Below, piece after piece: positions 53,526-53,644 of a stretch of DNA of 64,000 bases. Both the position numbers and the translations under genes were made by a program. The stretch is from Solidesulfovibrio sp. (GTDB lineage: Bacteria; Desulfobacterota; Desulfovibrionia; Desulfovibrionales; Desulfovibrionaceae): NCBI RefSeq assembly GCF_038562415.1, contig NZ_JBCFBA010000014.1, positions 1 through 64,000 on the forward strand, written 5' to 3'. The notes below the pieces were generated by a model. The model searched no databases. It saw nothing but the letters and a program-made list of their open reading frames with translations, and was not told the origin of the DNA. Numbering within the stretch: the first letter of the stretch is position 1; the number at the start of each line of letters is the position of its first letter.

Positions 53526-53644
53526 GTGGGTTTTGGTGGTTTCGTGGGTTTTTTACATCCACTCATAGTATTTTCGCAGACACATACTCACTGCGAAATT
53601 TCCCGCGTTAGATATAAAAAACCCATGAAACCCATAAAACCCAC
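53526..53644. repeat. Repeat module D: three 9-bp repeats per arm around a hairpin
   Basis: Left arm 53526-53552 is GTGGGTTTT, GGTGGTTTC, GTGGGTTTT; right arm 53618-53644 is AAAACCCAT, GAAACCCAT, AAAACCCAC. Paired, they give a 27-bp stem with 24 Watson-Crick pairs, two G-T and one mismatch. The middle unit of each arm carries the matching C/G change. The 65-base centre holds a perfect TTTCGCAG/CTGCGAAA hairpin (53572-53598). The right arm ends on the first base of the primase-helicase stop codon. Confidence 0.85.

Follow-up and report, generated by a model that had tools for sequence, protein, structure and literature searches.

Facing arrays of 9-bp iterons behind a primase-helicase gene as a probable replication origin in prophages and phage contigs

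What is the role of a compact set of facing repeats placed exactly at the end of a primase-helicase gene in an integrated element of Solidesulfovibrio? The window, by which we mean the whole stretch of 64,000 nucleotides analyzed, contains an integrated element of about 18.3 kb, delimited by the attachment-site repeats at tRNA-Phe (a direct repeat of 110 nt) and by the integrase beside the second copy (Table 1). The element also encodes an excisionase-like HTH protein and shows protein matches to phage endolysin and injection-transglycosylase families, the injection-type proteins being found around 46.2–50.2 kb. No capsid or terminase was recognized among the element proteins scanned, and the element may therefore be a reduced prophage or a satellite. 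The GC skew of the element gave no clear origin signal. Another direct repeat of 69 nt (83% identical), with one copy inside the integrase gene (59313–59381) and the other beyond the attachment repeat (61418–61486), may be a relic of a previous integration event.

The longest inverted repeat of the window (53526–53579 and 53591–53644) has arms of 54 nt that are 74% complementary overall and separated by 11 nt. A preliminary description of this DNA had reported two facing triplets of 9-bp units at 53526–53644, a matching change in the middle unit of both arms, a right arm ending at the primase-helicase stop codon and a perfect hairpin in the center. We recovered each of these features, and both the coordinates and the sequence proved right. 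The middle units of both arms carry TTTC where the outer and inner units carry TTTT; in the left middle unit the first bases differ too, with GTGG in place of TGGG. The right arm enters the stop codon TAG (53644–53646) by a single base. When up to 3 mismatches were allowed, CCCAYNAAACCCAYNAAACCCA was matched twice in the window against 0.03 matches expected, and two matches occurred in none of 100 shuffled sequences. As single-stranded DNA the window copy is predicted to fold with −31.2 kcal/mol (z −7.3), and as RNA with a z of −7.7. We propose that the module is very probably an iteron-type replication origin of the element, bound by the C-terminal winged helix of its own primase-helicase. 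This proposal draws on the anatomy of the module, its recurrence, the co-variation of its arms and of the C-terminal domain, predicted folds and likeness in layout to the P4 crr and the origins of PICIs.

Table 1. Features of the module and of the element that carries it (positions in the window).
Feature	Position	Strand	Description
Attachment-site repeat 1	41918–42027		overlaps tRNA-Phe (41892–41967)
ERCC4-type nuclease gene	52862–53416	−	downstream of the module
Distal (gene-far) iteron array	53527–53553	+	three 9-bp units
Distal unit TGGGTTTTG	53527–53535	+
Distal unit GTGGTTTCG	53536–53544	+
Distal unit TGGGTTTTT	53545–53553	+
Core between arrays	53554–53616		63 bp, candidate opening site; about 41% G+C in a region of 60% G+C
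Core dyad/hairpin	53572–53598		TTTCGCAG (53572–53579) and CTGCGAAA (53591–53598); 8 bp perfect, 11-nt loop
AACGCG motif	53604–53609	−	gene-near side of the core
Proximal (gene-near) iteron array	53617–53643	−	three 9-bp units facing the distal array
Proximal unit TGGGTTTTT	53617–53625	−
Proximal unit TGGGTTTCA	53626–53634	−
Proximal unit TGGGTTTTA	53635–53643	−
Primase-helicase gene	53644–56118	−	824 aa
Predicted C-terminal winged-helix part	53647–53850	−	codons 757–824; its similarity tracks iteron similarity
Tyrosine integrase gene of the element	58837–60060	−	adjoins attachment-site repeat 2
Attachment-site repeat 2	60223–60332		92% identical to repeat 1

The link between the module and a replication gene, and its recurrence, had also been claimed from this single stretch, and both were borne out among homologues. 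The source genome carries a 91%-identical copy of the primase-helicase on another contig and a 51%-identical copy on a third, and a match was present in 53 of 297 genomes of a class-wide sample. A profile search recovered 19 loci in named genomes, ranging from Fundidesulfovibrio and Solidesulfovibrio to Dokdonella, Novosphingobium and Methylobacterium, and 247 confirmed loci in viral contigs. Only the 80 best of these viral loci were retained, so that family counts describe the nearer relatives. Most of the loci read are IMG/VR contigs. A first scan of viral contigs with a single protein as query found no relative, and an exact pattern scan of viral contigs yielded three loci that stand outside the later analysis. 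The 3' ends of 115 regions were collected and 20 were dropped (19 duplicates and one short region, L128), leaving 95 distinct regions. These were scanned with a detector calling at least two tandem units per side, with a unit spacing of 8–11 bp and a score threshold of 3.5.

Facing iteron arrays were found in 71 of the 95 distinct regions; of 342 control stretches drawn from other parts of these loci, only 3 had them. Strong inverted repeats (16 of 20) were similarly frequent, with 76/95 regions against 5/342 controls, and at least one of the two features was present behind 84 of the 95 homologues (7/342 in controls). The remaining 11 homologues had neither, while 24 fell below the iteron threshold. 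In a one-strand version of the detector, with the window in + orientation, background matches appeared at 29161, 34561, 36121–36241 and 61921. The usual order after the stop codon is two or three tandem units, a core and the same units inverted. The array next to the stop codon begins a median of 7 bp past it (71 loci), and in 18 of these 71 loci it begins within the coding sequence. Outside this set, six records of more distant phage homologues were fetched; the gene of the sixth leaves the stretch, and the five whose gene end lies within it showed no such module there.

The cores enclosed by the arrays have features of their own. Their mean G+C is about 0.46–0.47, compared with 0.54 for the 310-bp regions and 0.60 for the whole loci. 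In many relatives ACGCG stands close to the array on the gene side, and the middle of the core carries AAACTGTCA...TGACAGTTT, to which the core dyad of the window corresponds in place. Of the 71 cores, 27 have an inverted repeat scoring at least 7, 42 have TGNCA and 38% have ACGYG; the corresponding rates in shuffled cores are 12%, 27% and 7.4%. The dyad and the ACGYG and TGNCA motifs are thus frequent but not universal. The units share a base bias rather than a sequence: read toward the core they consist of 45% G and 32% T, with G+T above half in 70 of 71 loci, and 55 different 7-mers occur across the 71 loci.

The preliminary description had suggested checking for co-varying arms downstream of related primase genes. 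Arm identity within a locus averages 0.910, against 0.596 when arms are swapped between loci and compared in the best register, so the two arms do change together. In the main alternative to iterons, the module acts as an extended stem-loop or cruciform origin like the one proposed for plasmid pRN1, and its 9-bp units are a side effect of the pairing. The strong fold of the window copy speaks for this alternative, as does the 100-bp stem-loop origin that the portions of PMC4234260 on pRN1 place 3' of its primase-helicase gene. However, same-arm units are about as alike (7.30 of 9 positions) as non-facing units of opposite arms (7.32), with facing units at 7.69. An arm thus repeats one recognized word in tandem, and this likeness counts for iterons, since iterons require it and a stem does not. 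Moreover, in a close paralogue (92% identical columns) the arm changes are uncompensated and the long stem is lost, while the iterons are kept and the 8-bp core hairpin stem is unchanged; its predicted fold as single-stranded DNA is −16.4 kcal/mol (z −1.3). The arms of P4 and EcCICFT073 are likewise iterons without a long perfect stem. The claim of a selected 27-bp stem was thus not upheld.

The stem reading nevertheless leaves a trace. In the outer and middle units of 36 loci with 3+3 units, mirror-facing units are slightly more alike than non-facing ones (0.940 vs 0.897; 13 loci to 0, p 0.001). Irregular spacing is mirrored exactly in 11 of 14 loci (for example 9,10 vs 10,9), and for 16 of 31 loci no other order of the units folds better than the true one (mean gain 2.1 kcal/mol). 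This modest mirror order exceeds what iterons alone need: either a hairpin, or a pair of rings docked in fixed positions, makes use of the symmetry, or there is mutual correction between the arms. For the long stem that a pRN1-type origin would be expected to maintain despite sequence change, the evidence points both ways: it is lost in the paralogue, but a residual mirror signal persists in the family. In our view the stem arises largely because the iterons face each other, with a minor mirror contribution in addition. As the main function of the module it was rejected as the leading reading because the paralogue lost it and the tandem units are alike, although the mirror signal remains, and we regard a pRN1-like stem origin as improbable.

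If the arrays are iterons, a protein should read them, and the primase-helicase itself is the obvious candidate. It shows a weak Toprim_2 match (residues 197–276) and a D5/SF3-like ATPase in its C-terminal half. All 79 members of the family alignment (A2, made after dropping four proteins with a short or broken frame) match phrog_29234, whereas only 3 of 79 match the Pfam family DUF5906; a second alignment (A3) holds 51 hand-picked members of the 79. A search of PDB sequences with the family profile gave no useful match (best E 0.27). In the predicted model of residues 326–824 (mean pLDDT 95.5), the protein has a D5/SF3-group ATPase fold with a putative DNA-binding domain at its C terminus. 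The best VIA match of the model is the SaPI5 primase-helicase 7ola_C (Z 13.8, rmsd 6.9, 364 aligned, over model residues 7–488), tied with vaccinia D5 8apl (Z 13.5). Over the last 100 residues the prediction shows helices and then a wing of two strands (pLDDT 90). Modeled in isolation, this part gave only weak matches to generic winged-helix folds (Foldseek E 0.42 at best, VIA Z at most 7); the PDB matches listed did not include the P4 alpha domain, which excludes nothing.

We found that the C-terminal domain and the iterons vary together. In partial Mantel tests on 56 loci, similarity of the C-terminal domain correlated with iteron similarity when the helicase was held constant (r about 0.19–0.204, p 0.001), whereas the helicase did not when the C-terminal domain was held constant (r −0.017, p 0.61). 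The effect persisted (0.188, p 0.003) when only pairs of less than 0.5 helicase identity were considered. By segment, the association with iteron similarity was strongest for the wing (0.141, p 0.004) and next for the recognition helix (0.115, p 0.033). None of three 65-residue helicase windows reached significance, although segment 326–400 gave a p of 0.048. For L043, a separate 41-residue piece served as the C-terminal match. The co-variation is statistically clear but modest, and since Mantel tests may be optimistic for related sequences, it is support rather than proof. On the basis of this co-variation and the predicted fold, we propose the C-terminal winged helix as the putative iteron reader.

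Two other readings would place the module outside replication. It might be an operator or other regulatory site, bound by the primase-helicase or another protein of the element and controlling the downstream genes. Its position between the helicase gene and downstream genes on the same strand would suit this, and iterons often autoregulate. However, we found no sigma-70-like promoter in 53300–53900, and the P4 crr and the EcCICFT073 origin, both known replication regions, occupy the same place, so we consider a purely regulatory site quite unlikely. Slightly less probable still is a role in RNA, as a transcription terminator or a structured element ending the primase-helicase transcript: the site at the stop codon and the strong RNA fold favor this reading, but 53300–53900 contains no terminator-like site (a short G+C-rich hairpin with a T-run), the Rfam search returned no credible match (two eukaryotic ones far under the gathering scores), the gene-near array can start inside coding sequence, and the tandem-repeat arms track a predicted DNA-binding domain in sequence. 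Overall, the scan of 53300–53900 and the Rfam search left the terminator, Rfam family and promoter readings unsupported.

We next compared the putative iteron origin with known systems. The sections of PMC6092414 on PICI origins describe two iteron sets flanking an A+T-rich region and a rep-ori segment of EcCICFT073 that drives a plasmid. The module follows this layout: its 3+3 facing units are two iteron sets flanking a region immediately 3' of the putative initiator gene, and this core is A+T-rich, though only relative to its locus (G+C 0.41 vs 0.60). As in PICI and SaPI rep-ori regions, the candidate origin lies directly 3' of a primase-helicase gene, and the predicted helicase fold resembles SaPI5 PriRep. 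In EcCICFT073 itself, which we identified in the CFT073 record by place and gene content (the record does not use that name), facing TCTACC-type iterons with 9-bp spacing among them lie just 3' of the primase gene. Viewed against the PICI gene set, the 18.3-kb element has an integrase and the excisionase-like HTH protein but also the endolysin- and injection-family matches; such phage-type injection genes set it apart from PICIs. The present family also differs from PICIs in that its helicase falls into another sequence group, in its neater 3+3 symmetry, its recurring core dyad and AACGCG motif and its G/T-rich inward strand, and only the ATPase core of the EcCICFT073 protein aligns to it (hhalign probability 86).

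Similarly, the crr of P4 lies 3' of alpha, and its annotated type-1 repeats are 9 bp apart and facing. P4 alpha has a winged-helix C terminus, and P4 has a separate ori elsewhere in its genome. With the smallest core length lowered from 25 to 20, our detector scored the two crr copies at 3.25 and 3.75. Unlike the present module, crr consists of two 120-bp copies with TTCACC-type iterons of a different base bias, and the similarity of alpha to the present family is confined to the ATPase core (hhalign probability 48). Binding of alpha to repeats at the P4 origin is mentioned in the part of PMC4234260 that deals with P4. The same source, where it treats pRN1 and BIP-1, places a structure behind the 3' end of a gene for a primase-helicase whose C terminus is a winged helix; the pRN1 origin is described there without iterons, and its primase is archaeo-eukaryotic. 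In BPP-1, a relative of BIP-1, the detector found no facing iterons behind the primase. In SCCmec, the passages of PMC7581432 on Cch2 report a D5-type helicase that binds direct repeats just downstream of its own gene at a putative origin, which in that case has three 5-nt iterons. Our search of the open-licence literature found no description of this group of origins, which is weak evidence of novelty.

Most likely, the module represents the origin layout of PICIs and P4 in a regular form that is widespread among prophages and phage contigs. From this layout we infer how the origin would work. The primase-helicase would bind the six 9-bp iterons through its C-terminal winged helix, and the facing arrays would flank the A+T-richer core with two helicase rings in head-to-head orientation. 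Driven by ATP, the helicase would then open the core, where the dyad and AACGCG may serve as a second recurring element for melting or ring assembly, and the primase half would lay the first primers for bidirectional replication after excision of the element. A more speculative extension, which we hold to be possible but doubtful, is that the origin is read twice: the iterons by a fast-diversifying winged helix, and the mirror symmetry as an extruded hairpin or a fixed docking frame for two rings. In that case, members of the family would be naturally matched pairs of initiator and origin, a catalogue that keeps the elements residing in one host apart, with a correcting process keeping the arms in step.

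The putative iteron origin thus shows a PICI/P4-type layout, more regular than in those systems, behind a large group of prophage and phage-contig helicases hardly recognized by Pfam. Under this constant layout the recognized sequence has been replaced again and again, both arms changing together and along with the domain proposed to read them, which makes the joint change of initiator and origin specificity, an old question, directly testable. Facing arrays behind the helicase also provide a simple rule for locating origins in many unannotated prophages.

Several individual loci show further variation. In L104, the left array behind the primase gene consists of about a dozen tandem copies of TGCGGGTAT, as if iterons can expand. 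In L132 and L149 the region 3' of the primase gene contains, upstream of the main core, another cluster of iterons and a core-like motif belonging to it, which suggests duplicated origins. In the source genome, further copies of this origin type are present at L038 (G000:C24:8500-15000) and L039 (G000:C19:104500-109500), one with nearly the iteron of the window and one with AGGTTYTG-type iterons; they possibly represent natural compatibility groups. Finally, a different arrangement occurs elsewhere in the window, where ten same-direction TGTCCGG copies and one inverted copy lie at 11277–11532 within the 3' part of an AAA_25 helicase gene (11221–12888, − strand), which is followed by a CHC2/Toprim primase gene (10136–11224). 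This TGTCCGG cluster (about 11.27–11.54 kb) is probably what the preliminary description had called module C and likened to the present module in its place at the end of a replication gene; with copies in the same direction in place of two facing triplets, it is an iteron cluster of another design.
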